Source of the DNA: Streptomyces globosus
GTDB taxonomy: Bacteria > Actinomycetota > Actinomycetes > Streptomycetales > Streptomycetaceae
Assembly (NCBI RefSeq): GCF_003325375.1
Contig: NZ_CP030862.1
Span: forward strand, 2,421,501-2,485,500
DNA length: 64,000 nt
Direction of reading: 5' to 3'
Part shown: piece by piece, positions 26,956-60,601 of the stretch
Layout: every line of letters begins with the position of its first letter
Numbering within the stretch: the first letter of the stretch is position 1
The notes under the pieces: generated by a model
What the model was told of the DNA's origin: nothing
The model's input: the letters and a program-made list of their open reading frames with translations, nothing else
Databases searched by the model: none
Translations under genes and position numbers: made by a program

Positions 26956-27290
26956 TGACCGAGTCGATCGCGCAGCGCGACCAGTCCAGCTCGCCGTTCA
27001 CACCAAGTCGATCGAGGACCACACGGTGCAGCTTGGCCCAGACCCGCGCCGTTGACCAGTCTGCGAAACGCCGGTGCACCGTCTGCCAGGAGGCACCGAA
27101 GACCGGCGGCAACTGCCGCCAAGTACAGCCCGAGGGGCGACGAAGATGATCGCGGCCAGGACCGCACGGTCGTCGCACCGCCGCCGACCTCCGCCTTGAG
27201 CACGTATCGGCGGCTCCGGCGCCACGTCCTGGAAGATCTCCCACAGCCCGTCCGGCACCAGTCGTTCAACCATGTCCATGCCCGGAGCAA
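26930..27290 (-). pseudogene. IS5-family transposase fragment (N-terminal part, frameshifted)
   Basis: LVPDGLWEIFQDVAPEPP in one frame, then LPPVFGASWQTVHRRFADW and GELDWSRCAIDSVSVRAVKGG in another, are the N-terminal domain and first catalytic Asp region of IS5-type transposases. The rest is missing and joins directly to the pentapeptide gene. Confidence 0.85.
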
Positions 27291-27304
27291 CGATCTATCG
27301 CCAA

Positions 27305-28603
27305 TCAAGACACCGCCCTACTGTGCTTGCCCGCGGGCTTCGCGGCGAGGGCCTGCTGCTCGACGTGCCGTGCCGCGATGTACAGGCCCTCGCGGTTCAG
27401 GTGCCGCGAGTAGCTCGAGTCGAGGTAGAGCACGGGCACATCGCCGGCGGCCTTCAGAAGCGCAGGGTGCAGCAGGTGCTTGATGGGGCCCGAGCCGCCG
27501 CCGTAGACGTAGACGACCTCGGTCGTCGCACCGGCCTGGGAGAGGACGTCGCCGAAGGAAGAGACGATCTCGTCGACCAGGTAGCCGGCCTCGTCCTCGA
27601 CGAAGCCGACGGCGCGCTGGTGACGATTCCTCACCAGCACAGACGGCTTCGCGTGGAGGAAGTCCGCCAGCTGCTTGCGCGAGGAGAACTGCAGCGTGGC
27701 GTCCGACTCACTCATGCGCTCCATGGCGTTCATCAGCGCGGTGCCGTAGCCCTCGTCGAGCGTGGCTGCCGCCTCGGGGTTGAAACGCCCATCGGTGAAG
27801 ACCGGGAAGTTCACGGTGCCCTCACCGACATCGACACCGATGGTGTTCTGCACCGCCACCAGATCGGAGGCCGAGACCCCTTCCACCACGGATGCGTCGC
27901 GAGTGCGCAGATCATCGAGAAGAGCCTGGGCCAGCGGTTCGCCCTTGTCGGTGATGGCGAACTGCGCGGAGGCACCCTCGGCCATCACCTGAACGTCGAC
28001 GAACTGCAGGCGCACCGAGACCGGGGTGCTGAAGTTCTTGATCGTCACCAGGTGCACCGCGGGGTCGGAGCTGCCCAGCAGGCCGATGAACTCTGCGGCG
28101 TAGGCGTGGCGGCGCGCGACGAACTCGGAGATCGGTAGCGCCAGGCCGGCGCGTACCTGCACGCGCAGCTCGTGAGCGGGCAGCGCGCCGTTCTCGCGGA
28201 CGTAGTCGCGCAGGGCCTTCGCGGCGAAGACACCCAGGACCAGGACCTTGCTCAGCTCCTGATCAGCCTTGGAGTGCTTGCCCAGTACCTCGAACTCGGT
28301 GAACTTCGAGCCGCGCACGCTCAGCGCTGCCCGGCCGAAGATCCGGCGGTCCGACGCCGCCACCAGGGTTGTGGTGAGGGAGCAGTCGATCTGGTTGTAG
28401 AAGTCTCCGGCCATCACGGAGGCCGCATCCGCGTCGGGGAGCGGCACCTTCGGCGAGGTGCGGGACGTCGAGACGACTGCGCTGGGCAGATCGATCTCGT
28501 CGAAGATCTCCCGCTTCGTATTCTGGATGACGCCCTTGACGTAGCCGTTGCCGACGTCGATGCCGCCGGTGAGGGTGATGATGTCGTTGCTGTTGGCGCT
28601 CAT
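27305..28603 (-). CDS. ParM/StbA-like actin-type plasmid segregation ATPase
   Basis: 432 aa from ATG 28603. All three actin-fold nucleotide signatures are present: phosphate-1 GGIDVGNGYVKGVI (residues 13-26), phosphate-2 IGVDVGEGTVNFPVF (about 252) and the adenosine line YVYGGGSGPIKHLL (about 355). Such proteins polymerise with ATP and push plasmid copies apart when capped by a ParR-DNA complex. The gene upstream encodes a ParR-like protein. The C-terminal basic tail ends AGKHSRAVS. Confidence 0.85.
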   Translation of the reverse strand: MSANSNDIITLTGGIDVGNGYVKGVIQNTKREIFDEIDLPSAVVSTSRTSPKVPLPDADAASVMAGDFYNQIDCSLTTTLVAASDRRIFGRAALSVRGSKFTEFEVLGKHSKADQELSKVLVLGVFAAKALRDYVRENGALPAHELRVQVRAGLALPISEFVARRHAYAAEFIGLLGSSDPAVHLVTIKNFSTPVSVRLQFVDVQVMAEGASAQFAITDKGEPLAQALLDDLRTRDASVVEGVSASDLVAVQNTIGVDVGEGTVNFPVFTDGRFNPEAAATLDEGYGTALMNAMERMSESDATLQFSSRKQLADFLHAKPSVLVRNRHQRAVGFVEDEAGYLVDEIVSSFGDVLSQAGATTEVVYVYGGGSGPIKHLLHPALLKAAGDVPVLYLDSSYSRHLNREGLYIAARHVEQQALAAKPAGKHSRAVS

Positions 28604-44083: not shown

Positions 44084-45823
44084 TCAGGTTCGCTGGAAGT
44101 CCTCGGAGTCGGCCTCGGCGTTCGGGCCGTCGTTCTGCGCGCCGGCCTCCCGCTCGGCCGACGGACCCGTAGGGCCCGACCGCGGCTTGAGCCGCTGCTC
44201 CTCGAAGAAGGCCCCGGGGTCGTCGACCGCCGTCTGCAGTGTTCGCTGCCAGTTCTCTCCGAGGCTCCGCTTCAGCTGCGCCTCGAGATCCGGGTACTTC
44301 TCGTGCACTGCCTCCATCGCGTCGACGTAGGCGTTGGAGTAGACCCGCTGCTGCTCCTCGGGAGGCAGACCGTCGATGTCCATGCTCGCGATCATCACCT
44401 CGGACTGGTCCAGGCGGTGCTGGAGCATGTCGGGCAGCCCGCTGGTGTCCAGACCCTGTTTCTGCGCCGCGAAGCCGACCAGGTAGCCGAGCATGTTGCC
44501 TCCGTAGGCCTCTTTGTCGCCGCGGCCCAGCGCGTTGAGAAGCGAGGTCTTCATCGTCTCGGCGAGCTGAACCTGGTGGGCGTCCGCGTCCATGGGTCGG
44601 CGGAGTGTGAACATCCCGTCCTCCGGCAGACGCCGGCCCAACTGGTCCTCGAACTCCCCGCTCCAAACGGTGCGGACCCGGTCGGAGCCCGCGATCCGCT
44701 CCTCGTGTGCGGGGGCCTTGACGATCCGTCCGTGGGCCACGCCGTTGAACATGGTGCGCAGCTCGGGCTCGTACTCCATCCGCTCGCCGATGATCTTTCG
44801 GGCGCGCTGGACGACCTCCCGGCGCTCCAGGCCGTCTTCGCTGATCTGCTCGTACAGGCGCTTGCGCAGCGCCCGGTGGCTCTCGCGGATCAGGCCGACG
44901 TCCGCGCCCGGCTCCCGCATCTTCCAGAAGGCGTTCTCCATGAGAGCGACCTCGGTCATGGCTGCCGAGTCCGCAGTGAACATCTCCCGGTGGCCGCGCT
45001 CACGATGCTGCATGGCGTCCAAGCGCGTGCGCCACTTCTTCGACAGGTGGTCACGCGGATCCGTGCTGCCGATCAGGCGCTCGCGCCGGGCCCCGCTCGG
45101 CAGGTCCTTGAAGATCCTCTGCCGGTGCGTGATGCCGCTCTCGGCAAAGGCCACCATGCCACGGGTCCGGGTGTCGATGCGCTCCTGGATCTTGTCCTTG
45201 AGGGGTTGGAGGTAGCTGTCCATCTCCTTCTTGAAATCCGGGGCGAGCATCCGCATCGTCATCACCATGCCGACCGCCTGGATGATCGAGTTGGCATTCA
45301 CTCCGCGCGAGAGCGGCTTGAGACAGGACTGCATCATCATCTGCATGTAGACGTGGTGCATGACGCCGAGATCCTGCGTGCGCTCCTCGTCGGTGAAGCC
45401 GGGCACCAACAGCTTCGAGTCCCGCAGCGAGTCCATGTACTTCTCGCAGGCCAGCCGCGTCTCCGCCCTGAGTTTGAGCAGCTGCTCGCGCTGATCCAGG
45501 CCCTCGCTCTCGTCCTCGGCCCGGTCGACGTCGATCCCGTGCACGCGGTCACGGTCGGCCATCCGCTTACGGGTCTTCTCACCGAAGAATTCGCGGGCAC
45601 GGTCCCGGAGCCGCTCACGCCAGGCGCGCACACCGTCCACGTCCTGCGGCCCCGGATCGTCGATCACCTCGGCGTCGATCGGCTCGTCCGAGCGCGAGGC
45701 CCAGTGGGCGTAGGTGTTGCCTCGCGGCTCACCGGTCCGAAGCCGATCGTCGCCAACCGGAAGCACCTTGGTCGCGCGCCGGCGCACCGTGGGTCCTGTT
45801 CCCAGTTCCTTGGGCTGTGCCAT
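44084..45823 (-). CDS. 579-aa helical protein directly following the RNA polymerase gene
   Basis: ATG 45823 starts one base after the RNA polymerase stop. The chain is almost all helical and charged, with Arg/Asp/Glu-rich stretches (RERLRDRAREFFGEKTRKRM, HRALRKRLYEQISEDGLER) and no membrane segment or Cys motif. I do not recognise a family. The one-base spacing suggests the two proteins are made together, so it may be a partner such as a specificity or assembly factor. Confidence 0.7.
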   Translation of the reverse strand: MAQPKELGTGPTVRRRATKVLPVGDDRLRTGEPRGNTYAHWASRSDEPIDAEVIDDPGPQDVDGVRAWRERLRDRAREFFGEKTRKRMADRDRVHGIDVDRAEDESEGLDQREQLLKLRAETRLACEKYMDSLRDSKLLVPGFTDEERTQDLGVMHHVYMQMMMQSCLKPLSRGVNANSIIQAVGMVMTMRMLAPDFKKEMDSYLQPLKDKIQERIDTRTRGMVAFAESGITHRQRIFKDLPSGARRERLIGSTDPRDHLSKKWRTRLDAMQHRERGHREMFTADSAAMTEVALMENAFWKMREPGADVGLIRESHRALRKRLYEQISEDGLERREVVQRARKIIGERMEYEPELRTMFNGVAHGRIVKAPAHEERIAGSDRVRTVWSGEFEDQLGRRLPEDGMFTLRRPMDADAHQVQLAETMKTSLLNALGRGDKEAYGGNMLGYLVGFAAQKQGLDTSGLPDMLQHRLDQSEVMIASMDIDGLPPEEQQRVYSNAYVDAMEAVHEKYPDLEAQLKRSLGENWQRTLQTAVDDPGAFFEEQRLKPRSGPTGPSAEREAGAQNDGPNAEADSEDFQRT

Positions 45824-45824: not shown

Positions 45825-48800
45825 TCAGTACCCCATCCCGTAGTCGTCGTCGACTTCGGGCTGATCGATCTCGATGCTCGGCGTGTAGACCGGGCGCCTC
45901 GCGCCCGCGGCCACGGCATGCGCGGAGCGGCGCTGCGAGCCTCGGGTGCGGGACGCCGCCGCGTCTTGAGAGATCACGTCGCGCTTGACCACCGAGTCAT
46001 CGACGGCGATCACGGCGTGGTCCAGGCTGTGCCTTCCGGTGGAGCCCAGCTGATCCAGCTGCCACGACATCTGCACCCGAGCCTTCAGAGCCGCCGAGGA
46101 CGCGAACTGCTCGTTCTTCTCGCCGTCGTAGACGCTCTCACGGTTCTTGGCCGCCTCGACCAGATCGGCGAACGCGCCGGCGTAGGCCATCCGGTCCATC
46201 AGGGTACCCCGCAGCGACACGTCTTCTTCCAAGTTGCGGATGAGCCCGGTCGCCGGGTCCTCCAGCGCACTGGCCACGCGGGCCACGTACTCCGGGTTGA
46301 CCCTGACCCCGAAGCCGTCCTTCGATTCGTAGAACTCGATGAACTGCTTTTCCCACTCCTCGGCCGCAGCCTGGACGGGCTCACCGTCCAGGAATGCCGT
46401 GCGCCACTGGCCCGGGCCGACACGTTCGATGCTGCGGCCCCTCCAGAGATCACGGCCGGGGCCCTGGAGCATCGCGTATTTGTGCCGGGCCTCGGCAGCG
46501 TCGTGCTTCGCCTGCAGGATCGACTGGGTCACCGGGTAGGTGACCTCCAGGACGGCCTTGAGATCCTCGCCGCGCAGCGCGCGCACGGCGCGCTGGCTGA
46601 ACGCGCCACCCAAGCCGGTGCCGTGGGACTTGATCGCCGTGGCGAACATCGAGGCTTCCTGGTCGGATTGGGTGATGCCGGGCGTGCCCTGTGCATCGCC
46701 CAGGTTCCGGGCGTAGTCCTCGAGCTTCCTCTCGCTCCCCTTCGCGCCGGTCCTGACACAGACCTCGCGCACGCTCTGCAGGTGTGCCTCGCGATCCGCG
46801 AACGTCAGAGCCGCACCGAACTCACCACGCTGCGCCCGGCGGTACAGCCCGCTCAGCTCTTCCGTCACGAACTGCTGGGCGAGCCTGACGTCCTCCGGCG
46901 AATCCGAACCCGTGAGGGCCCGCAGCCGGAGCCGGTTGGCCTCGCTCCGCGAACTCTCCAACTCATGGGCCATTCTGGCGTTCTTGGAGAGCGCGACCTG
47001 GGTGTCCAGCGACACCTGCATGGCCAGCGGGTGTGAACCATCGCCCCTGACCACTCCGGTGTCCAACAGGTTGGCCGGCACCGAGAGCTTTGCCAGGGCC
47101 TCGGCCTTGGCTGCCTCGCTGTGCAGCTTCACCACGGCGACGGCATCACCGTCGAAATCGCCGTCGAAGCAGGCGTCCATGACCGGGTTGATCGCCGCGC
47201 CGGTGAGCCGGTCGTCGATCGCCACCCGCATGTAGCGCACACCGGCGTCACGGAGCACCGGGTCACGCCACACCAGCGCGTGGTCGCCCTCGGCGAGCCC
47301 CAACTTCGCAGCCTTGACCGAGCTGAGGGCGACTTGGTCGACGTCCAGCCGTGGGTCTGCGGTCCACACCATCGTCGCCGAGTCGGTGAGCCGTGAGGAC
47401 ATCAGCCCGGTCTTGAAGATGTTGCTCGTGCCCGTCAGCACTCGGTTCTGGACGTCGGTCGTGATTGCTTCGAAGGCGCGCTGAGCGCGCGAGACCGATT
47501 CGCTCATGCCGCGACGCACCTCGGCGCGCTTCTCGGCAGGCAGACCCTGGCTGTCCAGCTGCTCGGCCATGTAGCGGTAGCGGCAGGCCTCCACGAAGAC
47601 GTCCTGGTAGCTGCGGGTGTAGTCGTGCGTGACGGAGGACCCGTCCTCGAACTCCTGACCACTACGCAGATGCGAGGACATCACCGGCAGCTTCCACGAG
47701 CTCGCGCTCACCGTCTCGGTCTGCTCACCGGTCGGATACGTGAGCGGAAACGGGATCTCCATGTCGCCACCGCGGTCGCCGATGAGGTCGCCGAAGGACT
47801 CGCGCATCGCCATGATGTTCAGTCCCGGGAGCTGGCCCGCCCTGCGCGGCTGCGTGCGCAGCAAGTCGGGCATCGGGATGAACCGGCGCTCGGTACGCTC
47901 GTCGAGGCCCTCGGCCTGGCCGATCACGCGCAGCGTGCCGTCAGCGTCCATGTCCATGCCGGATACCAGCAGGTACTCACGCAGGCTCGACTCGGCCCCG
48001 CTGTTGTGGCCGTAGAACTCGCGCATGATCGCCGGACAGTCCTGAGACTGCAGCGCCCAGGCCAGTTGAGCGGAGGCCTTACGGCCCTTGCCGGCACGCA
48101 CCTGCTCGTCGTCGTAGATCTTCGTCTTCTCGTCGACGGCCATATGGGTGACCACGAAGCGCATCTCGCCCAGGGCACTCGGCCGCAGTTCTCCGTTGGG
48201 CGAGCGCAGATCGGAGACGTTCCCGCTCATCAGCTCGCGCGCCGAGCCCGCGTTGCGCCGGGAGATGAGGCTGAACGGACTCATCACCACGTCCAGACCC
48301 GGGTTGGCGCGGAACCAGTTCACCTCTTCGACAACGGCCTGCCGCTGCGCGTCGTGCAGAGGCATGTCCCGGTCGACGATCAGCGAGATCACGCCCTTGT
48401 TGCCGTGCAGATCCGAGATCTTGTCGCCCACGACGAGATCGCGCTCCCGACCGCCGGTCCCGCGGATGCGGTGGCGCCCGGCGAATTCCTTCGACACGAC
48501 GATCGGGTCATCAGCCGTCCAGCCGCCGAAGGTCATCAGCGCCGTCTTCGCCGGTGCGGTGACCTCGGAGGACTGCATGATCGTCGAGGCCGTCATCTGC
48601 TGACGGTCGAACGGGTCGTACCGCAGCGTCTCGAGCTCGGGGAGAGCCATGAGCGGCGCACGCTGTCCGGCCACGCTCTCGTCGCCCGGCACGATCCGAC
48701 CATCGCTGCCGACCTGGGCCTGAGTGGTCAGGTACCGCACGATGCCCTGGTTGGTCGCGCCCCCGGTCATCACCGGGTCGAAGTAGCCGCCGGGCGCTGC

Positions 48801-51377
48801 CACGTTGTTCCGGTCCTTGCCGGTGAGCACCGCCATGTTCCGCCCGCCGGTGAGCCGCCAGGCGTCGAAGTGGTTGTCATCAGCCGGGTCGGTTCGGTCG
48901 CGCTGGGCCCTGTACTCGGCGTAGACGGTTGAGCCGGCCTTGATCTCGTTGGAGTAGCGCACACGGCGCGCCTCGGTCTGCAGGATCGCTGCCGTCCACT
49001 CGTCCAGGTGTGCCTTGAACTCGCCGGTGGACTCGTCCCGCCGGTACGTGGTGGCGCGCTCGATGTAGTCGACGGGGTGCCTGGTGCCGTAAAGCTGTGA
49101 GTAGACCGTGTTGAGTGAGGAGGGCTCGCCGGTCTCGCTCCGCCCGGTGATGACGTCACCGGCGATCTGGTACTGGATGCGCTCGTGCATGAGCTGCTCG
49201 TAGCCGCGCAGGCGCGTGCGCTCCTCGACCGAGGTCGGAGCCTCGCCTGGGGTCTGGGCCGTGATCGTGGCCTGGTAGCCGGGCACGATCAGGGCGTTCT
49301 GCCCGCCGGCGAAGGCGGTGGTGATCTCGCCGTACTCGCCGACATCGAACACCTGGCCGATCTCGCCCGAGATCGGAGTTCCCTTGCCGTCACGGCGAAG
49401 CTTCTCGCCACTCCAGCGAATGACGCCGTGATCGTCGACCAGGATCTCGGCGACCGTCGCCGCGTTGCGCTCGATGCTCTCGCGCACGGTGACCCCGATA
49501 CGCCGCATGAACGCGGATTCGTGATCGGCGATCGGCACGGAACGCTCGGCGTTGAAGCGGACGAGCCGGTCCTTGAACCGGGTCGTCTGGAAGGTCGAGC
49601 CCATGATCTCGTCAGGGGAGATCTCGCAACGACGAAGCGCTGAGGCGAGGTTGTCGAGGTTCGACCACTGCCCGGTGGGGCTGGTCATGTATCGCGCCAC
49701 CCGCTCCGGGTTGAAGCGCTGATCGACCCACTCGCCGTCGACGTCGTGGGGCTCCGCCTCCCAGGTCCCGATGAGTTCGAAGGGAACGTCCTCAGCGTGC
49801 TGTCGGACCTTCTCGACGGCGGTGCCGCCGTAGACGAGGTTGCCCATCTCGGGCGTCTCCTCGGCCTGCAGCTCGCCGATCTCCTCCAGCCGTTGCCGGT
49901 ACAACTCTTCGGTCGCACCCGGGCGCAGCAGTTCGCTGTGGGCGCCTGTGAGCACGTCCCAGTACGAGCGCTGGATCGCAGCGACCTCGGAGTCAGCCGA
50001 GTACTCCGGCGGTTCGATCGCATCCAGCTGTCCGCCGGTTCGCTCCAGCTCCGTCTCGGCACGGGCAATGAGGTCCTCGACGCCGAGGGCTGCCCGCAGG
50101 TTCTCCCGAGCGCTCTCGACGGCGGTCTTCGCATAGGCCGCGGCCGACTCGGTGTCGATGAAAAAGGCCGGCAGTGAGCGGTTCTTCGCGTCCCGGCGCA
50201 GCATCACCTTCGAGCCGGGCCTAGGGCCGGACTCACCGGGGGCCACGTAGTCGCCGACCACGAACATCGAATCACGGTCACCGTGGTAGCTGTCGGGCAC
50301 ATCCACCACCATGCGGCCACGGCCGCGCTCCTGGTGCGTCGCGCCGGTCTCGCCGGCGGCGCGCCCCGGAACATCCGTACGCTCGACGCGATGTCCCTGG
50401 GCGAAGCGCAGTAGTTGGACGGCCTCCGCCGGCGAGGGGGAGTAGACCGCCGTGCCGCCGGGAACCCGGTGGTTCGTCGAGTAGCGCAGCACGGTGCCCT
50501 TGTCGTATATCCGAGCTCCGGCGTACTCCTCCTGGCGTGTGTCGATGAGGCGGATCTCCATGCCGGTCCCGGCGATCTTCGCCTTGATCTGACCTGGCTC
50601 GCGGTCGCGCATCACCGCGTAGGACACGCCCTGGGCCTTCAGCTCTTCGAGCAGTGCTGCCGAGCGCGCCACGGCGCGCCGGGACATGAAGCGGTTGCCG
50701 TCGACGCGGTTCGTCTGCGGGTTCCGGCTGCCGTCGATGACCCACTCGCGCACCTGGTCGTACTCCTGCCGGCTCATCTTGTCCATGAGCGCGGTGAGTC
50801 CCGCGGCGTCGTCGATCGTCATCGCGCGGCCTGCCTGGAACGGCCGGCCGTTGTCGTCGATGCCCCAGAGCACCATGTTCCCGCGCCGCGGGTCGGCCAG
50901 GGTCTCCACCTCGCCGCCGGCCACGCGTCCGATCGTCTCGTCCGGCAGGTACAGCAGCGCGGTTCCGGCGCGCTTCACGGTCGCGCGTTCGGACCAGGCG
51001 GGGTCATAGGGGCTGATCGGCAGCCGGGCCGACTGCGAGTCGACCTGGGCACCGACACCGGTGACGCGGGTGAACTCCCGCTGCAACTGCTGATAGCGCT
51101 CGTTCCGGGGGGAATGATCACCGAACTGCGGCTCGTAGTCGGACACCTTCTCCGCGAACGCCTGGTCGATGGCGGAGAGGCAGTCCGCGATGCCCAGCCG
51201 GGGGTCGGCCAGTGCGGTGGCCCGCCGGCCGAGGATCTCGTCGACTCGGGCGCGGATCGCCTTGGCCTGGGAGATCGGAATGACCTGTCCGGCCTGCATC
51301 CTGGCCTGCTCGACTGCCTTGTAGTAGACGTACTCGTAGAAGTACTTCCGCAGTCCGCGCGCCTTCTTCATAGTCAA
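45825..51377 (-). CDS. Single-chain, two-barrel DNA-dependent RNA polymerase (beta and beta-prime catalytic parts fused)
   Basis: 1850 aa from TTG 51377 (GGAAG five bases upstream); ATG two codons later at 51371 is the alternative start. Near residue 980 GDKISDLHGNKGVIS matches the beta-subunit line 'GDK.aGRHGNKGVIS' with both catalytic lysines. It is followed by LDVVMSPFSLISRRNAGSAR, which matches 'vDivlNPlGvpsRMNiGQ'. Near residue 1400 MDACFDGDFDGDAVAVV matches the beta-prime 'NADFDGDqMAVH' Mg-binding loop. After it come bridge-helix-like GAKGSERKLEDYARNLG and trigger-loop-like IKSHGTGLGGAFSQRAVRAL. Order beta then beta-prime in one chain recalls the YonO type of phage SPbeta. No alpha, omega or sigma gene is seen nearby. 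Confidence 0.9.
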   Translation of the reverse strand: MTMKKARGLRKYFYEYVYYKAVEQARMQAGQVIPISQAKAIRARVDEILGRRATALADPRLGIADCLSAIDQAFAEKVSDYEPQFGDHSPRNERYQQLQREFTRVTGVGAQVDSQSARLPISPYDPAWSERATVKRAGTALLYLPDETIGRVAGGEVETLADPRRGNMVLWGIDDNGRPFQAGRAMTIDDAAGLTALMDKMSRQEYDQVREWVIDGSRNPQTNRVDGNRFMSRRAVARSAALLEELKAQGVSYAVMRDREPGQIKAKIAGTGMEIRLIDTRQEEYAGARIYDKGTVLRYSTNHRVPGGTAVYSPSPAEAVQLLRFAQGHRVERTDVPGRAAGETGATHQERGRGRMVVDVPDSYHGDRDSMFVVGDYVAPGESGPRPGSKVMLRRDAKNRSLPAFFIDTESAAAYAKTAVESARENLRAALGVEDLIARAETELERTGGQLDAIEPPEYSADSEVAAIQRSYWDVLTGAHSELLRPGATEELYRQRLEEIGELQAEETPEMGNLVYGGTAVEKVRQHAEDVPFELIGTWEAEPHDVDGEWVDQRFNPERVARYMTSPTGQWSNLDNLASALRRCEISPDEIMGSTFQTTRFKDRLVRFNAERSVPIADHESAFMRRIGVTVRESIERNAATVAEILVDDHGVIRWSGEKLRRDGKGTPISGEIGQVFDVGEYGEITTAFAGGQNALIVPGYQATITAQTPGEAPTSVEERTRLRGYEQLMHERIQYQIAGDVITGRSETGEPSSLNTVYSQLYGTRHPVDYIERATTYRRDESTGEFKAHLDEWTAAILQTEARRVRYSNEIKAGSTVYAEYRAQRDRTDPADDNHFDAWRLTGGRNMAVLTGKDRNNVAAPGGYFDPVMTGGATNQGIVRYLTTQAQVGSDGRIVPGDESVAGQRAPLMALPELETLRYDPFDRQQMTASTIMQSSEVTAPAKTALMTFGGWTADDPIVVSKEFAGRHRIRGTGGRERDLVVGDKISDLHGNKGVISLIVDRDMPLHDAQRQAVVEEVNWFRANPGLDVVMSPFSLISRRNAGSARELMSGNVSDLRSPNGELRPSALGEMRFVVTHMAVDEKTKIYDDEQVRAGKGRKASAQLAWALQSQDCPAIMREFYGHNSGAESSLREYLLVSGMDMDADGTLRVIGQAEGLDERTERRFIPMPDLLRTQPRRAGQLPGLNIMAMRESFGDLIGDRGGDMEIPFPLTYPTGEQTETVSASSWKLPVMSSHLRSGQEFEDGSSVTHDYTRSYQDVFVEACRYRYMAEQLDSQGLPAEKRAEVRRGMSESVSRAQRAFEAITTDVQNRVLTGTSNIFKTGLMSSRLTDSATMVWTADPRLDVDQVALSSVKAAKLGLAEGDHALVWRDPVLRDAGVRYMRVAIDDRLTGAAINPVMDACFDGDFDGDAVAVVKLHSEAAKAEALAKLSVPANLLDTGVVRGDGSHPLAMQVSLDTQVALSKNARMAHELESSRSEANRLRLRALTGSDSPEDVRLAQQFVTEELSGLYRRAQRGEFGAALTFADREAHLQSVREVCVRTGAKGSERKLEDYARNLGDAQGTPGITQSDQEASMFATAIKSHGTGLGGAFSQRAVRALRGEDLKAVLEVTYPVTQSILQAKHDAAEARHKYAMLQGPGRDLWRGRSIERVGPGQWRTAFLDGEPVQAAAEEWEKQFIEFYESKDGFGVRVNPEYVARVASALEDPATGLIRNLEEDVSLRGTLMDRMAYAGAFADLVEAAKNRESVYDGEKNEQFASSAALKARVQMSWQLDQLGSTGRHSLDHAVIAVDDSVVKRDVISQDAAASRTRGSQRRSAHAVAAGARRPVYTPSIEIDQPEVDDDYGMGY

Positions 51378-51419
51378 TCAGCTTCCTGTGGATGCTCCGG
51401 TATGCAGAGAGCTTACATT

Positions 51420-51536: not shown

Positions 51537-54500
51537 CTACTTCGAGTTCATCTCGATGGCCATCGCCCTGTCGAACCGGCCGTCGGCCAGCACCTCCCAG
51601 CTCGGCAGCGAGGCCAGGTACTGGTAGAAGGCCGAGTGGACCTTCACCGTCGCCAGCGACTTCAGGTCCTCCTCGGTGACGTCCTCCTCCGCGAACACCC
51701 GCGAGCCCTCGTCCTTCACGTGGCCGTTGATCAGGCGGGCGGCCTTGGCGTACGCGTCCGAGCGGATCTGGCTGACGTAGGTCTGAGACCCATCGGCGCT
51801 GCGCAGTTCGCCGTCGCCGCCGACCGAGAAGTGCTCGCGATCCTGTTCCAACTCGGTCTGCGCGGACTTGTAAGCCTCAGCGATCTCGATGTCCAGGCTT
51901 CTGACCTTTGCCGAGCCGTCGGGATTGACCAGCATCTCCTTGCTGATCGTCCCCTCCGCGTAGAGCAGACGCCGCCGCTCGACGCTGACCGCCTGACTCT
52001 CGGCGACTGCGACACCGACCTCGACGTTCTCGATGAACTGGTCCTCGTCGAACATGCTCATCCCCTCGTACTCGTCGGGGTCGACGACCACCGGAGCGTT
52101 GGGGTCATGCCCCTCGTCCACCGTGGTCATCGTCGTGATGACCTCCATGACCTCGTCGGCGTAGACGTCCGGGTCCAGGCGCTCGATGTCGACCTCCCGG
52201 TAGCCGTAGATCTCCTTGTACTGCGCCTTCGCGTCCGCGGCCTTGACCGCCTGCCGCATGCGCTTCTCCAGCATCTTCACGAAGTCCGGCTGATTCATCC
52301 GCACGTCGAAGTCCATGGCACTGGACAGCGTCGGGATCGTCTGCAGTGAGTACGTGTGCCCCGGGTGCTTGATCGTGTCCCTCAGCAGCCGGACCGACAT
52401 CGGCAGGATCGTCTGGTTGCGGTTCCAGATCGGCGCATCGCCGGCCCGGAAGACGATCGAGTTGCGCGGCGAGAGGAAGGCCATGTCGTTGTAGCTGATC
52501 AGCGGCTCTTCCTTGGTGCTCATCGTGTAGGAGACCCGGCCCTCGGTCTTGCCGCCGATGACCTTGTCGAGATCCTGGCTGATCTGCTTGCTGTCCCTGT
52601 ACGAGCGGTGAGTCCTGCCGCTCATCTTCTCCAGCGTCTCGATCATCGAGTCGTCCGTGGATTTCAAGAACACGATGTTCGAGGTGTTGCCCTGCACGAT
52701 CTTGTCGACGCTCTCGCCGTAGACGTCGCGCAGTTGCTGCAGGGTCTGCAGGATGAGCGTGAACTGCTGCTCCTGGCCCAGGCCGATGGAGAGCATCGTC
52801 GCGAAGCCGTCGATGCCCTTGCCCTCCGACTGCAGGTTGCCGAGTTCGTCGAGCATGAACCGCGTGCGGTAGAGCGGCTTCTGGTTCGACTTCGTCATGT
52901 ACGACTGGTCGGCGCTCACATCGAACAGCTGCTTGACCAGAATCAGGATCAGTTTCGCGTACTTCATCAGGTGAGGCGGAGTCACCAGGAACAGCGCCTT
53001 CGGGGCCTCCGAGTAGCGAGACAGTTTCTGCGTGATCGCCCGTGCCTGATACGAGACCTTCTCCGGGTTGCCGCCGCCGGAGAAGTCGAGCCGCGTGTCC
53101 GGGTAGAGCGTGTCCCCGGCCTGGAAGGACAGGATCTTCCCGTCCCGAGTGCCACCCTCACGCACCGGCTTCAGCTCGCGCATCACGCCGTTCTTCACGA
53201 TCTTCTTGCCCGTCACCGGCTCGACCACGTAGTGCCGGCCATTGAGCGAGACCTGGTGGGTCTTCGTGAAGCTGAAGTAGAAGGTGCGCAGCAGCATCTT
53301 CGTCTGGGGGTTGACCAGCTCCAGCTTGATCCAGGTTTCGGCGCCGGGGAACTTGCCCTTGAAGTTGTACCGGGCCCAACCTTCGCGGCCGACGATCTCC
53401 TCGTGCTCGAAGTCCTCGCCGAGGTTCTCGGTGAACATCGGGTCCGCGTAGGCGGACCACACGGCCTGCTGACCGACGAGGTGGTCGCGCTTGACGTAGT
53501 TCGGCGCGAAGCGCACGCCGAGGCGACGCGGGAAGCTCAGGCCGGCCAGGTCGGTGTTCTGCGACGGCTTGCCCGAGGTCAGCGTCGAGATCGTGGGGTC
53601 GGTGAAGAACGACATGGCGGTGATCGCGATGCCGTACACAGAGGCGAGCATCTTCTCTGCGCCGGCCATCGAGCGCAGCGCGTTGTGGGCGTTGCCCACC
53701 ATCGTGCGCATGTTGTTGCGGGGCAGCGCTTCGCTCGCGTTGAAGTACAGGCTGAGCATGTCCTGATCGGCCTTGCCTTCCCACATGAAGGCCCGGGCCG
53801 CAGCCTTCGCCTGCTCCTCGGCCAGGGCGGCCGCGTCGTTGTCGAACTCGCCTGCCTTGACCCGCTTTTCCAGTTCGGCCTCAGGGTTCTTGACCTTCTT
53901 CGAGCTCATCTGCACGAAGAGCTGGTAGCAGTTGTAGAGCGTGACCTTGCCCCAGAGGTCATCGAGCTTCTGCTCGAGCAGCACCGGGTCCATGTCCAGC
54001 ACGGCTGCGGCGCTGCGCAGCTCCCGTTCCTCTTCCAGGTAGAAGTCGATGAGTCCGTAGGCCGCGCGCTTGAAGGCGTTGTTGGCGGCATTGGGCCAGA
54101 CCGGGTCCTCGCCGCCGTCGAGCGGAAAGAAGATCCCGGCGATGTTCTCCACATACAGTGCGCACTTGGTGAAGTTGCCTTCACGCGCTGCGTCGGCCGC
54201 CAGCCCCAGGGGGTTGTAGATGTCGGTCTTCATGGAGTTGATCAGGTTGAACTGCACCGGCTCGAACCCCCTGGTGACCAGGGGCACGTAGTTCTTCACC
54301 AGCAGCTCGCCCTTGGGGTCGTTGATGACCATGTTCGAGGGCTTCTTCTCTCGCGACCACATGTCGATGACCGGCTCGATGTACGTCTGGCCCTTACCGG
54401 CTCGGGTGATGGCCAGCACCATGGTGTTCACCGGCGCGGTATCGACTATGTACGCCCCGGCAGGGCGCTGGACCTCGTACTCCGGGAACGTCCAGTCCTC

Positions 54501-55583
54501 CTTGATCAGGGCAGCGACGGTCTTGTATGCGTTCGATCCGAAGCCGAGTTTGTCCCGGTTCTTGCCGTCAGGGTTGTACGGGATGCGTGTGGCGTCGTAC
54601 TTCTGTCGCAGGGTCTTGTCAGCGGGGAGGCCGGAGGCTTCGAACAGCTCGTCGCCGAAGACTTCGTCGATGATCGGCAGGGTCTGCGTCAGCGGACTGC
54701 CTTCGTCGTCGTCCATGGCCTCGCCGGCGTAATAGACGAGGTTCCCCTCCTCATCGGTGACGTCCTCCTTGGCGCGCTGGGCGACCTCGACAGTGCCCAG
54801 ACCCTTCTGCCTGAGCATCATGTGGCTGAGCATCGAGCTGACCTGCACGCTCGAGTGGGCACCGGCGTCAGGGAACCAGTCGTAGTTCTGCTGGATCTCT
54901 TCCGGCAGGGCGATGTGCTGGTCGTTCTGGTACTGGTTGATGTCGCTCGTGGTGTTCATCAGGTTCGCCGCGGCGACCCTCCGCGAGAACCACGTGCCGA
55001 TGACGAGGGCGACCATCAGACCCGAGCCGAGCGTGATGAAGAGCTTGAACCCCGAAACGTCGGCCAGCTGCTCTCCGACCGTCGTCGCGCTCTTCTCGGG
55101 CTCAGCCGGCCTGCCGGCGCCGAGGTTGCCGTCCTTCGCAGCGGTGTACCAGACGGGGACCGGAACAGCCCCAGCGCTGGGGTGACACTTAGCCTTCACG
55201 TCCGGGTTGCCGTCTTCGGTCAGGGGTCGGTAACACTTCACGACCGAGCCGCCCGCACCCGTCATGGTGTCCTGAACGTAGTACGCACTCGGCTTGCCGC
55301 TGCCGCTGCCGGACACACCCGAGCCCACGAACACGCCCGCCGAGAGCACCGCCGCGGCGATGAGCGAGTAGAAGACCCAGGCAACGACCGTCACCAGCAC
55401 TCCGGCAATGACCGCGACGACGATGCCCGGTCTGGTCGACCTCAGGGTCAGGAACTTGCTGCGGTCCAGCTGCTGGTTGTCGTGGACGTCTCGGTTCGTC
55501 AGCGTCTCGCCGGGCTTCCGCGCCGAGATCTTCTCCCAGCTGCTCGCCTTCGGCCGCGCCGCCTTCCGCCTGTTCGTGGCCAT
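51537..55583 (-). CDS. VirD4/TraG-family coupling protein
   Basis: 1348 aa from ATG 55583. Two N-terminal membrane regions (residues about 53-87 and 180-198) flank an extracytoplasmic loop. Walker A is AITRAGKGQT (391-400), with NDPKGELLVK next (421) and Walker B FMLDELGNLQSE (about 908). ILQTLQQLRDVYGESVDKIV is the typical coupling-protein helix after Walker B. The protein is roughly twice the usual length, with a large insertion between the Walker motifs and a C-terminal extension of about 300 residues. It brings the relaxase-DNA complex to the secretion channel. Confidence 0.9.
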   Translation of the reverse strand: MATNRRKAARPKASSWEKISARKPGETLTNRDVHDNQQLDRSKFLTLRSTRPGIVVAVIAGVLVTVVAWVFYSLIAAAVLSAGVFVGSGVSGSGSGKPSAYYVQDTMTGAGGSVVKCYRPLTEDGNPDVKAKCHPSAGAVPVPVWYTAAKDGNLGAGRPAEPEKSATTVGEQLADVSGFKLFITLGSGLMVALVIGTWFSRRVAAANLMNTTSDINQYQNDQHIALPEEIQQNYDWFPDAGAHSSVQVSSMLSHMMLRQKGLGTVEVAQRAKEDVTDEEGNLVYYAGEAMDDDEGSPLTQTLPIIDEVFGDELFEASGLPADKTLRQKYDATRIPYNPDGKNRDKLGFGSNAYKTVAALIKEDWTFPEYEVQRPAGAYIVDTAPVNTMVLAITRAGKGQTYIEPVIDMWSREKKPSNMVINDPKGELLVKNYVPLVTRGFEPVQFNLINSMKTDIYNPLGLAADAAREGNFTKCALYVENIAGIFFPLDGGEDPVWPNAANNAFKRAAYGLIDFYLEEERELRSAAAVLDMDPVLLEQKLDDLWGKVTLYNCYQLFVQMSSKKVKNPEAELEKRVKAGEFDNDAAALAEEQAKAAARAFMWEGKADQDMLSLYFNASEALPRNNMRTMVGNAHNALRSMAGAEKMLASVYGIAITAMSFFTDPTISTLTSGKPSQNTDLAGLSFPRRLGVRFAPNYVKRDHLVGQQAVWSAYADPMFTENLGEDFEHEEIVGREGWARYNFKGKFPGAETWIKLELVNPQTKMLLRTFYFSFTKTHQVSLNGRHYVVEPVTGKKIVKNGVMRELKPVREGGTRDGKILSFQAGDTLYPDTRLDFSGGGNPEKVSYQARAITQKLSRYSEAPKALFLVTPPHLMKYAKLILILVKQLFDVSADQSYMTKSNQKPLYRTRFMLDELGNLQSEGKGIDGFATMLSIGLGQEQQFTLILQTLQQLRDVYGESVDKIVQGNTSNIVFLKSTDDSMIETLEKMSGRTHRSYRDSKQISQDLDKVIGGKTEGRVSYTMSTKEEPLISYNDMAFLSPRNSIVFRAGDAPIWNRNQTILPMSVRLLRDTIKHPGHTYSLQTIPTLSSAMDFDVRMNQPDFVKMLEKRMRQAVKAADAKAQYKEIYGYREVDIERLDPDVYADEVMEVITTMTTVDEGHDPNAPVVVDPDEYEGMSMFDEDQFIENVEVGVAVAESQAVSVERRRLLYAEGTISKEMLVNPDGSAKVRSLDIEIAEAYKSAQTELEQDREHFSVGGDGELRSADGSQTYVSQIRSDAYAKAARLINGHVKDEGSRVFAEEDVTEEDLKSLATVKVHSAFYQYLASLPSWEVLADGRFDRAMAIEMNSK

Positions 55584-55719: not shown

Positions 55720-57777
55720 TCAACGGATGAAGACCACCCCGACGATGAAGCCGGCCACAGCCATCAGGAGCGAGAGCGTGACGATCATGACGACGAGGAT
55801 CTTGTTCGAGCGGCTCTGCATCTCGGAAGCCCGTGCCAGCTCGTTGGCGTAGGCCTCCTTGTCGGCCTGCATCTCCGTCAGGCGGGCTTCGTACCGCCTG
55901 GCCGTTGAATCCTCGACCGCCGTCAGCTGCTCGAGCAGGTCGGTGGCCCGCGTCACCTGGAAGTTGGTCTTCTCCTTCTCCAGGTTGAGGTTGTGCTGCC
56001 ACTCGGCGTCCCGAGTCGCCATCTGCGTGATGGCGTCCTTGCGGTTGCGCTCGAGCTCGTCCTCCATTCGGCGGATCCGGTCGGCGTGCTCAGAGCGCAT
56101 CGATTCCAGGAGGTCCCGCTGTTCCCGGCGCAGGATGCCGATCTCGTCCGTGGTCCGCTGGTGCTCGGCCAGCGCCTCGGACTGGGCGATGTCCGCCTTG
56201 CGGTTGTCGTCGACGATTCGCTGGATCTCGGACTTCCACCGGTTCAGGCGCTCTTCCTCGGCCGCCAGGTACTCCGACTGCCGCTCGGCCAGCACCTCGA
56301 ATATCCGCGTCTGCCCGGTCTGCATCTTCAGCGTTGCGTCCGACCGCCGGACCCGCAGGATTTCCTGCTGGTTGTGCGCGTGGGTATCCTCGATGTCCCG
56401 CTCGATCTGGGCGACGGAGTCAATCTGCTCGCGCTCCATCCGCGAGCGGTTGCGCTCCTTGTACTGCAGCTCCGCCGAAAGCGCCGCCTGCTGGGCCACC
56501 TTGGCGGCCTGCGCCTCATACTCCTTGGCGATCTCCGCCCGGCGGGCTCGGGCCTTTTCCTCCTTCTCTGTCTGCCGCTGCTGGTGCTCAGCCTCGGCCG
56601 CGTCCTTCAACAGCTTGTACCGGGAGCCCTCGCGGTCGGTGGCCACCGCACGGATGACCTGCTCGGTGTGCGCCGACATGAGGTTGACGTAGAGCGCACG
56701 CAGCTCAACCTCGTGCGCGGAACGGAGCTGCATCAAGTCCGCGTTGGCTTGCCGGTTGAGCTGGGCGACCTGGTCCCCGAGCCACTCGGTCGCTCCCTCG
56801 GGCACGGCGATCTGTACGACCGGTGCGCCGATGGTGAAGGTCGCGTTGAACTCGTCAAGCCGGACGTCCAAGTCCAGCTCCTCGGAGAGGAACCGGCGGG
56901 CGATGACGTCGCGTACCTGGGCCTGATCCGCCAGCAGCACGGCGTCGCCGGCTTCCTGGTGGTCGCCTTCGATGTCGTAGCCGGCGCCGGTCTCGTCGAA
57001 GCCCTCGTAGCCGGTCACGTCGTCGCCGTCGTAGTCCGGCTCCGACTCGACCGAAACGGTGTCCATGTCGTCCCCGTCGAACACGGGTGCGTCCACCCGT
57101 TCATCGTCGTCGACGACGTCGCCGAAACGCGGCTCGTCGTCCAGGCCCTCGTCAGCCCCCTCGTCACCGGGGATCTCATCGAAGATCGCATCCCCCTCGT
57201 CCTCATCGAGGAGCGCCGGGGAGGGGTCGGCGGTCCCAGCCTCGGCGACCAGGCCGCTGTGTTCTTCCCACGCCTTCTTGCCCACGGCTTCTTCGAGGGT
57301 CGTGACACCTGCGGCGACGAAGCGCGCCTGTGCGAAGGTCGCATCGTTCACCAGATCGACGAGCAGATCGCCGCCGGGCTTCTGCCACACGACGGCCCAG
57401 GCGTAGGTGGCACCGGTGAGCAGCGAGTACTCCTCCATGCGCGCGAGAGTCTCGTCGGTGGGGATGATGCCGAAGACTTCCTCCTCGAGCATCTCTGCCG
57501 TGGCCACCGTGCGGATCTGGTCGGAGCTGATGAGCTCGATGATCGAGCCCTTCGCCTCGTCCCGGCCGTGCCGCGTACTCAAGCCGCCGATCTCCTCGGC
57601 AGCAAGCACGAGCATCACCCAGGCCGTGCCGCTGGGAAAGACGAACGGAGTGTTCGACCGCAGCAACTCGACCGCTGCCGGGATCGCCGTCTCTCTCACC
57701 ACGGAGGCCAGAAGCTCATTGGGCTTCTTCTTCCGTTCCTTCTTCTGGCGGACCGCCGCCGCTCCCAGAATGCCCAT
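55720..57777 (-). CDS. Long coiled-coil protein with a C-terminal membrane anchor
   Basis: 685 aa from ATG 57777, with GAGGAG upstream; the frame extends to 57870 but the extra residues look non-coding. Residues 1-190 are globular, residues 190-310 very acidic (EGDAIFDEIPGDEGADEGLD). A coiled coil of roughly 250 residues follows (ERDIEDTHAHNQQEILRVRR), then one membrane span at the end (ILVVMIVTLSLLMAVAGFIV). Such tail-anchored rods can act as scaffolds between cytoplasmic complexes and the membrane. The family is unrecognised. Confidence 0.75.
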   Translation of the reverse strand: MGILGAAAVRQKKERKKKPNELLASVVRETAIPAAVELLRSNTPFVFPSGTAWVMLVLAAEEIGGLSTRHGRDEAKGSIIELISSDQIRTVATAEMLEEEVFGIIPTDETLARMEEYSLLTGATYAWAVVWQKPGGDLLVDLVNDATFAQARFVAAGVTTLEEAVGKKAWEEHSGLVAEAGTADPSPALLDEDEGDAIFDEIPGDEGADEGLDDEPRFGDVVDDDERVDAPVFDGDDMDTVSVESEPDYDGDDVTGYEGFDETGAGYDIEGDHQEAGDAVLLADQAQVRDVIARRFLSEELDLDVRLDEFNATFTIGAPVVQIAVPEGATEWLGDQVAQLNRQANADLMQLRSAHEVELRALYVNLMSAHTEQVIRAVATDREGSRYKLLKDAAEAEHQQRQTEKEEKARARRAEIAKEYEAQAAKVAQQAALSAELQYKERNRSRMEREQIDSVAQIERDIEDTHAHNQQEILRVRRSDATLKMQTGQTRIFEVLAERQSEYLAAEEERLNRWKSEIQRIVDDNRKADIAQSEALAEHQRTTDEIGILRREQRDLLESMRSEHADRIRRMEDELERNRKDAITQMATRDAEWQHNLNLEKEKTNFQVTRATDLLEQLTAVEDSTARRYEARLTEMQADKEAYANELARASEMQSRSNKILVVMIVTLSLLMAVAGFIVGVVFIR

Positions 57778-57918
57778 CGATGCCGATCTCCTCGCCAAAG
57801 GAACACAGTCCGCCTGGTTTACGAGCATCCTATCGTCGCCTTGTCTGAATAAGCAACCATAGGGCGTCAAAGGACTATCGGCCCGCTAGTCGACTAGGTT
57901 CCGTCGGCCTTTACCGAC

Positions 57919-59685
57919 TCATCGCACCGCACTGACCTCGATGTAGGCATCGGAACTCAGCAGGTTCTTGTCGTCGCTGACCAAGTCGCCGACGACGTCG
58001 ATGCGGATCCGTCGCTCTGAGGGGTGCTCGTTGAGGAAGGTCGCCACCGCGGTGGTGACCTCGTCGGTCAGCCTCGCCACGGCCGCACGCGCGCCGCCGG
58101 CATCGGAGTCGGTGTCACCCTTGTCCTCGATGAGGTACTGCAGCACCCTCGCATCGACGTCGACCCGCACGTTGTGCTTGACGAACACCTCCTGCACCAT
58201 CTGCCGAAGCTTCTTCCGCACGATCTTCTGCTGCGTCGGCAGCGACAGCGGCTGGAAGGGTACGATCGCGTCGATGCGGCCCAGCAGCTCGGGCGGGAAC
58301 CGGTTGTCGCCTGTCGTCGAGGAGATGGAGCGGCGGATCAGCTTCTCGTACTCCATCAGCTGTTTGCCCGAGCCGGTGTCGTCGGCGGCGTACTGCGAGA
58401 TGCTCTTGTAGATTTCCGTGCCGGCGTTCGTCGTCAGGACGATGTACGTGTTGAGGAAGCTCACTTCGCGGTTGTTGTCGTCGTTGAGCCGGCCGTCGTC
58501 GAGCACCTGTAGCAGCACGCGCGTGACCATGGCCGAGGCCTTCTCGACCTCGTCGAACAGCAGCACGGCGTGGGAGAGGTCCCACACCCGCTTGGTGAGT
58601 TCGGAGCGGAAGGCCGCGAATGACGAGTCCTCGGCGTACTCCGTCATGTCGAAGCGGATCAGGTGCCGCTGGTCATCGCCGAACAGCAGCTTCGCCAGCT
58701 GCTTGGTGAGTTCGGTCTTGCCGACGCCGGTGGAGCCCGTGAACAGCAGGCTCGCCATTGGCTTTCCCTTGTCGTTGAGGTCGGCCACCGCCAGCTGTAG
58801 GCGACGCGCCACCGCGCTGGTCGCCCATTCCTGGCTGAACACCTTCTCGTCCAGCTGCTTCTTGATCTTCGCGCCGTCGACCTTGAAGGCCACGTTCACG
58901 TTCAGGGTCTCCATGAGCACGTCCGAGAGCAGGTCCCGGTCCATCGGCCGGTGCGTCAGGCGGGACCAGCCGACCATGGAGTCGAGCACGAGGATCGACT
59001 TGCGCGGTTGAGCGCTGGCCGGCATGTAGCGCTGGGTGTACTCGTAGATCTGCCGGAAGATGTGGTCGTCGTAGAACTCGTCGGCCACCCCATATCGTTC
59101 GGCCATGCCCTGCAGAATCTTGATGGTCGTCGACTGGTCGGGCGGGTTCAGGTTGATGCGTTGCAGTCGCTCGACGAGCGGCTGGTTCGGCGAGATGTGC
59201 TTGTGGAACTCCTCGTAGGTTGTCGCTGCGATGATCCTGATGCCGCGGGTTCCCGATGCGGCGAGGACCGGCTTGATCGCCTCGACGGCGGCGTCGGAGA
59301 GCTGCGCGACCTGATGGAACTCGTCGATGAAGAGGACCAGTTCGTGCCTCTCGTTTCTGACGAAGTCCTCGGCCTCGTCGAACAAGCCCTTGAGGATCGC
59401 GGCCATGTTCTCGGCGGTGCCCGCCTCGGAGATCATGCGCGCTGGGTCCACTTCCAGGTAGAGGCGGTCCTTGTCCACCAGCATCGTGGCCTGGACCAGG
59501 GCCGTCTTGCCTGTGCCGGCCTCGGCCAACAGGAGCGCGTTGCACAGCTCGGGACGGCTCAGCGAGGCCAGCAGCTGTGTCGTCTCGTGCTCGCGGCCGA
59601 CGATGTCGCGCTCGGCCTTCTTCAGCGGCTCGGAGAGTTTGGACAGGAGCCGGTAGCGCTCGTTGAGCTGCACCTGTTGAAACAT
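57919..59685 (-). CDS. Clp-type protein with two AAA+ domains
   Basis: 588 aa from ATG 59685; the frame continues to 59754 but without a better start. The first AAA+ has AEAGTGKTAL (about residue 55) and VLFIDEFHQ (about 115). The second has FTGSTGVGKTELTKQLA (about 318), VLLFDEVEKAS (about 375) and the sensor/arginine region FPPELLGRIDAIVPF. Compared with ClpA/ClpC it lacks the N-terminal repeat domain, and I see no ClpP-binding IGF/LGF loop. It is probably an unfoldase or remodeller for the transfer machine rather than a protease partner. Confidence 0.85.
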   Translation of the reverse strand: MFQQVQLNERYRLLSKLSEPLKKAERDIVGREHETTQLLASLSRPELCNALLLAEAGTGKTALVQATMLVDKDRLYLEVDPARMISEAGTAENMAAILKGLFDEAEDFVRNERHELVLFIDEFHQVAQLSDAAVEAIKPVLAASGTRGIRIIAATTYEEFHKHISPNQPLVERLQRINLNPPDQSTTIKILQGMAERYGVADEFYDDHIFRQIYEYTQRYMPASAQPRKSILVLDSMVGWSRLTHRPMDRDLLSDVLMETLNVNVAFKVDGAKIKKQLDEKVFSQEWATSAVARRLQLAVADLNDKGKPMASLLFTGSTGVGKTELTKQLAKLLFGDDQRHLIRFDMTEYAEDSSFAAFRSELTKRVWDLSHAVLLFDEVEKASAMVTRVLLQVLDDGRLNDDNNREVSFLNTYIVLTTNAGTEIYKSISQYAADDTGSGKQLMEYEKLIRRSISSTTGDNRFPPELLGRIDAIVPFQPLSLPTQQKIVRKKLRQMVQEVFVKHNVRVDVDARVLQYLIEDKGDTDSDAGGARAAVARLTDEVTTAVATFLNEHPSERRIRIDVVGDLVSDDKNLLSSDAYIEVSAVR

Positions 59686-59719
59686 GCCACACAAGACCTC
59701 TCGACAGGACTGGCGATCC

Positions 59720-59750
59720 GACTGTGAAATCAGTCGAAATCTATCATGCG
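59720..59750 (-). promoter_or_regulatory. Promoter/operator-like element ahead of the Clp gene
   Basis: On the minus strand GATAGATT (-10-like TAGATT). On the plus strand GTGAAATCAGTCGAAATC has two GAAA units, here spaced 10 bp. Confidence 0.4.
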
Positions 59751-59903
59751 CCACACTCGATAGGGCGTGCAGTGATAGGCAAAAGGGCTCGTGAGGGCAT
59801 TCGTGGATGGGTCTTGGAAGGCGGCCGCGTGATCAGTGCTCGACTTCTCGTACGCGTAGGTCGTGCACTCCAGTGGATCAAGACGATTCCGTGTAGCCGA
59901 AAT

Positions 59904-59962: not shown

Positions 59963-60511
59963 TCAGCCGACCGTCGGCTGGTCGACCTCGACCTCGGCTG
60001 CCTGTTCCCGCTCGGTCTCGGGAGCCGAAGACTGAGCCTGTGACTCCTTGGCCGCGGCCTGGGCCTCGCGGGCTGCACGCATGGAGGCCAATTGGCGGTC
60101 CAGCGTTCTGCTGTCGACCACGAACTCGGAGGCCTTGACGGACTTGGTGTTGACCACCAGGCCGGTGCCGTGCGTCGCGGGCATCACATTGCCCTTGAAG
60201 CCGTAGATGGTGCCGATCTCGTTGCCGTCCTTGTCCAGGATCGGCTCGGTGTTCGGCCCCGCGGCCTCGGCGATCTCCTCCATCTGACTGGTGGAGTACG
60301 GGGCGCCGTTGTTGTGGCGGACCTTGCCGTCCTCGCCCTGAACCCGATCGGACTTCAGATGCAGGTTCGTTTGCTTCGGGCCGCGCAGGTCTCGAGCGTC
60401 AAGCTGGATGTCGGCGTACCGGGACTTGCCGTCCTTGGTGAAGCCCTTCTTGTAGGCTATCGCGATGAGGTTGACTCCGGTCATCGCGCCCCGGCCCCTG
60501 AGAAGTGCCAT
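59963..60511 (-). CDS. 182-aa protein of the relaxase region, function unknown
   Basis: ATG 60511 has GGGGAGAGAG upstream. The first half (MTGVNLIAIAYKKGFTKDGK with RYADIQLDARDLRG) looks like a beta-rich small domain. The second half ends in an Ala/Gln/Glu-rich helical tail. An acidic C-terminal tail after a beta-rich domain is reminiscent of single-strand-binding-type proteins, but no motif proves it. Confidence 0.65.
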   Translation of the reverse strand: MALLRGRGAMTGVNLIAIAYKKGFTKDGKSRYADIQLDARDLRGPKQTNLHLKSDRVQGEDGKVRHNNGAPYSTSQMEEIAEAAGPNTEPILDKDGNEIGTIYGFKGNVMPATHGTGLVVNTKSVKASEFVVDSRTLDRQLASMRAAREAQAAAKESQAQSSAPETEREQAAEVEVDQPTVG

Positions 60512-60601
60512 GCTCTCTCCCCTCCACTTGTTCCGACTGTCATCCGACAGTCGACCGCGATCAGTCACATCGCCCGAACAAGACGTAATCGGCTTGTCTG
60601 G

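Follow-up and report, generated by a model that had tools for sequence, protein, structure and literature searches.

A conjugation gene block of Streptomyces globosus encodes a protein that carries, as the matches to each of its halves support, both catalytic barrels of a two-barrel RNA polymerase in a single chain. In cellular RNA polymerases, the two barrels reside on two subunits. Homology to both halves, conservation of the catalytic residues, purifying selection and linkage of the gene to a transfer module are all supported by observation, and the protein is, judging from its sequence, very probably an active RNA polymerase. It appears to be a polymerase of a known kind in a setting for which the papers searched hold no description, and with a hint of export.

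Zygotic expression of conjugative elements is usually attributed to the RNA polymerase of the host. A single-chain polymerase that is kept by selection in transfer modules of both Actinomycetota and Bacillota would imply that some elements supply an enzyme of their own. If true, this bears on host range, on escape from host regulation and on the evolution of two-barrel enzymes. The likeness between relaxase and polymerase tails described below makes the question of export directly testable.

The Polymerase Gene

The DNA analysed, here called the window, is 64,000 nucleotides long and lies within a 6.86-Mb contig of a 7.5-Mb genome. On the minus strand, the reading frame at 45825..51377 runs for 1850 codons without a stop, and the earlier note had it start at the TTG at 51377, giving 1850 aa. 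That start is not likely. In the annotated orthologue of a Streptomyces plasmid (L002), the first codon is an ATG two codons after the position equivalent to the TTG, and a plausible ribosome site precedes the ATG at 51371; this ATG is thus probably the start, giving 1848 aa. The polymerase and its parts are laid out as follows.

45825..51371, minus strand: predicted single-chain two-barrel RNA polymerase, 1848 aa, from profile matches and conserved catalytic residues
47988..48800, minus strand: beta-type half, residues 860–1130, with the motifs GGWTADDPIVVS, GDKxSDxHGNK and SPFxxxSRxN and lacking the RpoB flap insert, from profile A6 against RpoB
46398..47510, minus strand: beta-prime-type half, residues 1290–1660, with a switch-2-like segment, the DFDGD loop, the GAKGS bridge-helix motif and a vTQxxLxxKH element, from profile A7 against RPB1
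45828..45851, minus strand: C-terminal tail DDDYGMGY after a variable linker, present across actinobacterial homologues; candidate export or docking signal

The closest homologues of the polymerase come from Streptomyces. Against eight homologues, dN/dS of the gene is 0.22 to 0.44; that is, the gene is under purifying selection. The leader CCGATCACTCC-GGAGGCGAT upstream of the polymerase (window about 51371-51400) is conserved around the ribosome site among diverse elements. A hairpin in the leader ahead of the start is no more stable than those of shuffled sequences.

Two Predicted Barrels in One Chain

The Pfam model RNA_pol_Rpb2_6 matches residues 977–1057 (1.4e-7; 31.5 bits, above the curated cut-off of 23.4), and RNA_pol_Rpb1_2 matches residues 1361–1429 (3.2e-5; 24.7 bits, just under the curated cut-off of 25.3). 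Profiles of each half, built from homologues of the polymerase, were searched against PDB sequences. Profile A6, for the beta half, matches RpoB with an E value of 4.6e-12 in two collinear pieces, and profile A7, for the beta-prime half, matches RPB1 with an E value of 7.6e-15 over the switch-2-like segment and the catalytic loop. Since Rpb2_6 scores above its cut-off and both half-profiles match solved RpoB and RPB1, the likeness to RNA polymerase is not due to chance. Within the A7 match, the GAKGS bridge-helix motif and the vTQ..L..KH segment are each weak when taken alone. A further profile, A1, matches the chromosomal RpoC beta-prime region in most Actinomycetes genomes searched.

The residues expected at the catalytic site are in place. 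The beta lysine motif, located near residue 980 in the earlier note, is VGDKISDLHGNKG, and it contains the catalytic lysines K986 and K994. The catalytic loop DFDGD supplies D1407, D1409 and D1411. All five residues are invariant in a 14-sequence alignment that reaches Staphylococcus and Lactococcus homologues. The earlier note had read an FDGDFDGD loop near residue 1400; its second half is the catalytic DFDGD loop, whereas the first FDGD is not conserved, being replaced in FGMDFDGD of Staphylococcus and FSGDFDGD of Lactococcus. Together with the RpoB and RPB1 matches, the invariance of these residues upholds the single-chain, two-barrel polymerase that had been proposed.

Between the two pieces matched by A6, about 230 RpoB residues are missing from the polymerase, at the location of the RpoB flap. 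The distance from the GGWTADDPIVVS motif to GDK is about 27 residues in the polymerase, and RpoB has ~230 more. AlphaFold gave the core, residues 572–1760, a mean pLDDT of 48 from an input alignment short of diverse sequences, and residues 1–600 a pLDDT of 70. The case for the two-barrel fold is therefore made from sequence, with the core model left out of it. A search of residues 1–600 against the PDB gave no match with an E value below 0.001.

The Transfer Module

The block contains a relaxase and a VirD4-type coupling protein together with the polymerase. Its further genes are as follows.

44084..45823, minus strand: 611-aa ORF from its first ATG, or 579 aa from the ATG at 45823; kept immediately downstream of the polymerase in actinobacterial loci
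51537..55583, minus strand: VirD4-like coupling protein, 1348 aa, from Pfam and NCBIfam; directly upstream of the polymerase in actinobacterial loci
55720..57870, minus strand: 716-aa protein whose C-terminal segment is hydrophobic; precedes VirD4 in 24 loci in addition to the window
57919..59754, minus strand: ClpA-like double AAA+ ATPase, kept in actinobacteria and Staphylococcus
59963..60568, minus strand: conserved protein, 201 aa
60602..62878, minus strand: relaxase of MobP2/MobL type, 758 aa (NCBIfam MobP2 5.9e-14, below the model cut-off; the L002 orthologue is annotated as relaxase MobL)

The VirD4-like neighbour directly upstream of the polymerase, as first noticed from the sequence, matches Pfam T4SS-DNA_transf at 1.9e-19, above the cut-off, and the NCBIfam CD1115 family at 7.6e-45, below the model cut-off. 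On the other side, the polymerase and the downstream gene are coupled through TGAGATG, in which the ATG at 45823 follows the stop by one base. The ClpA-like ATPase is without the ClpP-binding IGF/IGL loop and is a probable unfoldase. As for a VirB4 ATPase, PF19044 (P-loop_TraG) gave no match in eight related plasmid records.

Several side observations concern proteins of the module and its relatives. The window regions 3220-5520 and 5566-6669 (minus strand) hold relatives of two staphylococcal genes that sit between VirD4 and the polymerase, and the smaller of these two staphylococcal genes encodes a membrane protein resembling the N-terminal region of VirB4. The AAA+ gene is enlarged in L002:9135-13430 (1431 aa vs 611), as is the VirD4 gene in L010:4710-9830 (1706 aa vs 1348); both give LAGLIDADG/homing-endonuclease domain matches and probably hold inteins. 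The longer VirD4 of L019 has no such match. A Phage_lysozyme2-domain protein at L050:5041-7467 (minus strand), with counterparts on the staphylococcal and Lactococcus plasmids carrying this polymerase, is likely a peptidoglycan hydrolase for transfer.

Conservation and Co-Occurrence

The gene order AAA–716–VirD4–polymerase–downstream protein is found in 21 of 21 genome contigs retrieved, from Streptomyces, Promicromonospora, Arthrobacter, Kribbella, Granulicoccus, Nocardiopsis and Actinomadura; reading frames are broken in one of them (L027), and in some the flank that was retrieved ends short of the relaxase. The same order is found on three plasmids, of Streptomyces, Gordonia and Rhodococcus. 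The placement in a conjugation block downstream of VirD4, made from the window alone, thus holds in all of these neighbourhoods. In Staphylococcus, the genes for relaxase, AAA+ ATPase, VirD4 and polymerase share a strand of plasmid SAP020A; two other genes separate the VirD4 gene from the polymerase gene.

Among 72,556 plasmid records, tblastn finds the polymerase in 13, and a Staphylococcus query recovers the same 13. A VirD4 search at 1e-20 yields 14 records; two are weak lactobacillal matches, and the other 12 all carry the polymerase. The one polymerase plasmid without a VirD4 match at 1e-20 is pJM4A of Lactococcus; on Lactococcus plasmids, the polymerase and VirD4 genes lie far apart. With the Gordonia MobL relaxase as query (E 1e-10), eight of the 72,556 plasmids are found, all eight of which also carry VirD4 and the polymerase, and five of which are from Staphylococcus. 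Pairwise distances correlate between polymerase and VirD4 (r = 0.97); because they also do so between AAA and VirD4 (0.99), the correlation speaks for a common history of the module's genes and not for a special tie between these two. The analyses support a place of the polymerase in the conjugation block that is conserved in two phyla, Actinomycetota and Bacillota. One of the eight plasmids, pGKT2, carries the module with the polymerase, and experimental transfer of pGKT2 is reported into three other strains, of Gordonia polyisoprenivorans, Rhodococcus jostii and Nocardia (PMC5640721).

Relation to Known Polymerases

The polymerase shares with cellular RpoB/RpoC the homologous barrels, the catalytic lysines and aspartates and a switch-2-like segment. 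Unlike these two subunits, it is a single chain without the flap and the beta-prime insert. The best single-sequence match in the PDB, at 2.7e-5, is the virion RNA polymerase gp96 of phage P23-45 (PDB 8h2n), likewise a single chain with DFDGD. gp96 enters the host with the phage DNA and transcribes the pre-early genes (PMC10770324). It has no clamp and is part of a fusion with a phage tail tape-measure protein, whereas the polymerase here belongs to a conjugation module, and its long N-terminal region finds no PDB match. With the family profile, gp96 is matched at 3.8e-10, a weaker match than that to cellular RPB1.

YonO of SPbeta-like phages also has both barrels in one polypeptide, with DxDxD and no flap insert (PMC5467207, PMC7824862); it is a phage gene product of about 830 aa, against 1848 aa here. 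Pieces of phi3T YonO gave no significant match to the polymerase family by hmmsearch --max or hhalign, a weak test as single sequences were used. A text match that seemed to place YonO on Clostridium perfringens conjugative plasmids was a false lead, the matched word being the author name Yonogi. Single-subunit enzymes of phages and plasmids have been placed in one clade (PMC10770324).

A homologue is present in one of 151 genomes of the genus taken as Corynebacterium. Over 1728 residues it is 44.7% identical to the Gordonia protein (blastp), and it is 38% identical to the polymerase here. In this genome (G596, L059-L061), the transfer module with the polymerase adjoins genes for a C5 methylase, an NgoFVII-like nuclease and a Z1/DEAD protein, the make-up of the CglI restriction system. 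The CglI genes are NCgl1703-1705 (PMC4267653). Because the homologue adjoins CglI-type genes, NCgl1702 of Corynebacterium glutamicum is a probable orthologue of the polymerase. NCgl1702, which has been listed before among the RNAPs of mobile elements, is likewise a single-chain, two-barrel enzyme without the flap insert in a mobile element. Thus, the polymerase family itself is not new. What is new is the conserved conjugation module and the tail common to relaxase and polymerase on three staphylococcal plasmids, for neither of which was a description found in the papers searched.

CglI is located in the CGP3 prophage of C. glutamicum, and this 'prophage', as holder of the CglI genes, may contain such a conjugation module. 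Homologues of alpAC have been reported on pGKT2 (PMC4446434). In L060, at about G596:C1:2018108, the Corynebacterium-type homologue changes reading frame close to the C-terminus. The gene is thus split there, and a sequencing error and a real frameshift cannot be told apart.

C-Terminal Tails

Actinobacterial polymerases end, after a variable linker, in a tail of the type D/E-Y-E/G-M-G, which the actinobacterial relaxases do not share. On three staphylococcal plasmids, an acidic-hydrophobic tail is common to relaxase and polymerase, respectively KDIELEL and KGFELEM on SAP020A, KDIELDI and KDVEMEMS on pHD75-1_1, and KEYEIEL and SGFDLEM on pAYP1020. The pattern [ED][LMI][ED][LMIV].?$ is found in six of 196 ORFs on four staphylococcal plasmids, and these six are the relaxase and the polymerase of the three; it was drawn up after the tails had been inspected and is no independent test of them. 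The tails of the fourth plasmid, from S. aureus, do not fit it. Because of this misfit and of the post hoc pattern, the staphylococcal tails are a lead and not a test. On two Lactococcus plasmids, the polymerase is the sole ORF with the pattern, and in phi3T one unrelated ORF has it.

On pGKT2, two other proteins of the module region (L003:5169-6140 and 26234-28570) end in GPQLG and GPELGA, and the polymerase in EGLGA, which is close to both. The three proteins possibly form a group with a common tail.

Proposed Role of the Polymerase

A function linked to transfer is quite probable for this polymerase. As the likeliest reading, though with somewhat less than even confidence, we propose a dedicated polymerase of conjugative elements that would transcribe element DNA around transfer and possibly be exported with the relaxase into the recipient; that it acts in the recipient is possible, if somewhat doubtful. 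The RpoB flap binds sigma. Since this flap is missing, we infer that a single chain supplying both barrels would probably start transcription independently of host sigma factors.

As part of a transfer module with the MobL relaxase, the ClpA-like unfoldase and VirD4, the polymerase would transcribe element DNA around transfer in the following way. Its C-terminal tail would be the signal read by VirD4, and the AAA+ protein may assist in its unfolding. The polymerase would then enter the recipient along with the relaxase-bound strand and make the first transcripts of the element there, in the way of injected phage virion polymerases. Unfolding is reported to be required for passage through such channels (PMC5826034), so an AAA+ protein without the ClpP loop could prepare large substrates. 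Delivery of a two-barrel polymerase together with phage DNA has a precedent (PMC10770324). That the polymerase is itself a substrate of conjugation, recognized by its tail along with the relaxase, passing the channel and transcribing the element in the recipient ahead of the host polymerase, is a rather tentative proposal; export and the time and place of action we infer. Such a protein would be the conjugative counterpart of the injected virion polymerases. Weighing against the proposed role are the misfit of the S. aureus plasmid, the different tails of actinobacterial relaxases, the distance between polymerase and VirD4 genes on Lactococcus plasmids, and the outcome of the promoter-motif search given below.

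It is also conceivable, if on the unlikely side, that the polymerase stays in the donor and transcribes transfer or late element genes from promoters of its own, independently of host sigma, in the manner of YonO or the P23-45 non-virion polymerase. The characterized non-virion relatives of phages act so (PMC5467207, PMC10770324), the polymerase gene is part of the transfer operon and is kept together with it, and the translationally coupled downstream gene could encode a specificity factor. Against this, a polymerase that transcribes its own operon first needs the host polymerase, and the likeness of relaxase and polymerase tails on staphylococcal plasmids is left unexplained. Nor did a one-or-none motif search in the regions preceding element genes, in three elements and with six shuffles per width, find a promoter-like motif common to the three or clearly above shuffles. 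At width 24 the real score falls inside the shuffle range; at width 16 the scores narrowly exceed the null maximum, from only six shuffles, at 56.1/53.7 (L002), 54.5/53.8 (L003) and 54.2/51.0 (L004), and the consensus sequences differ among the elements.

Improbable to our minds is a primase role, in which the protein would lay RNA primers on the strand entering the recipient in place of the DnaG-like primases of other conjugative plasmids. Primases are known to transfer with conjugating DNA (PMC5512222), and no primase domain was found among the element genes scanned with Pfam; the scan covered part of the element, and the rest may encode a primase. The bridge-helix motif with other elements of processive polymerases suggests long RNA rather than short primers. 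Very improbable, finally, is that the gene is a phage passenger of the element that plays no part in transfer. The best-known single-chain, two-barrel enzymes are encoded by phages, and a phage virion polymerase gives the best single-sequence PDB match. However, the IMG/VR contigs yield no relative of the polymerase and INPHARED only short matches, to beta-like regions; the profile scores cellular RPB1 above the phage enzyme; and the gene keeps one place within the transfer module across many genera and occurs in staphylococci with the same relaxase and VirD4.

Flanks of the Element

No exact 16-base repeat of the tRNA-Pro gene that lies left of the window was found on the right side. This tRNA-Pro (GGG) gene, 2.1 kb from the window, adjoins a partial phage-integrase match, and together the two (L056:17898-17972 and G000:C1:2419625-2419765) may mark an end at which the element integrated. 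Window 12828-18687 (plus strand), left of the transfer block, has genes with PEP-utilizer/PPDK and Mur-ligase domains that look like cargo or chromosomal genes. The gene at 27305-28603 (minus strand) has a weak actin-like match (MreB-like_C, 3e-4, below the cut-off) and might be a segregation gene of plasmid type.
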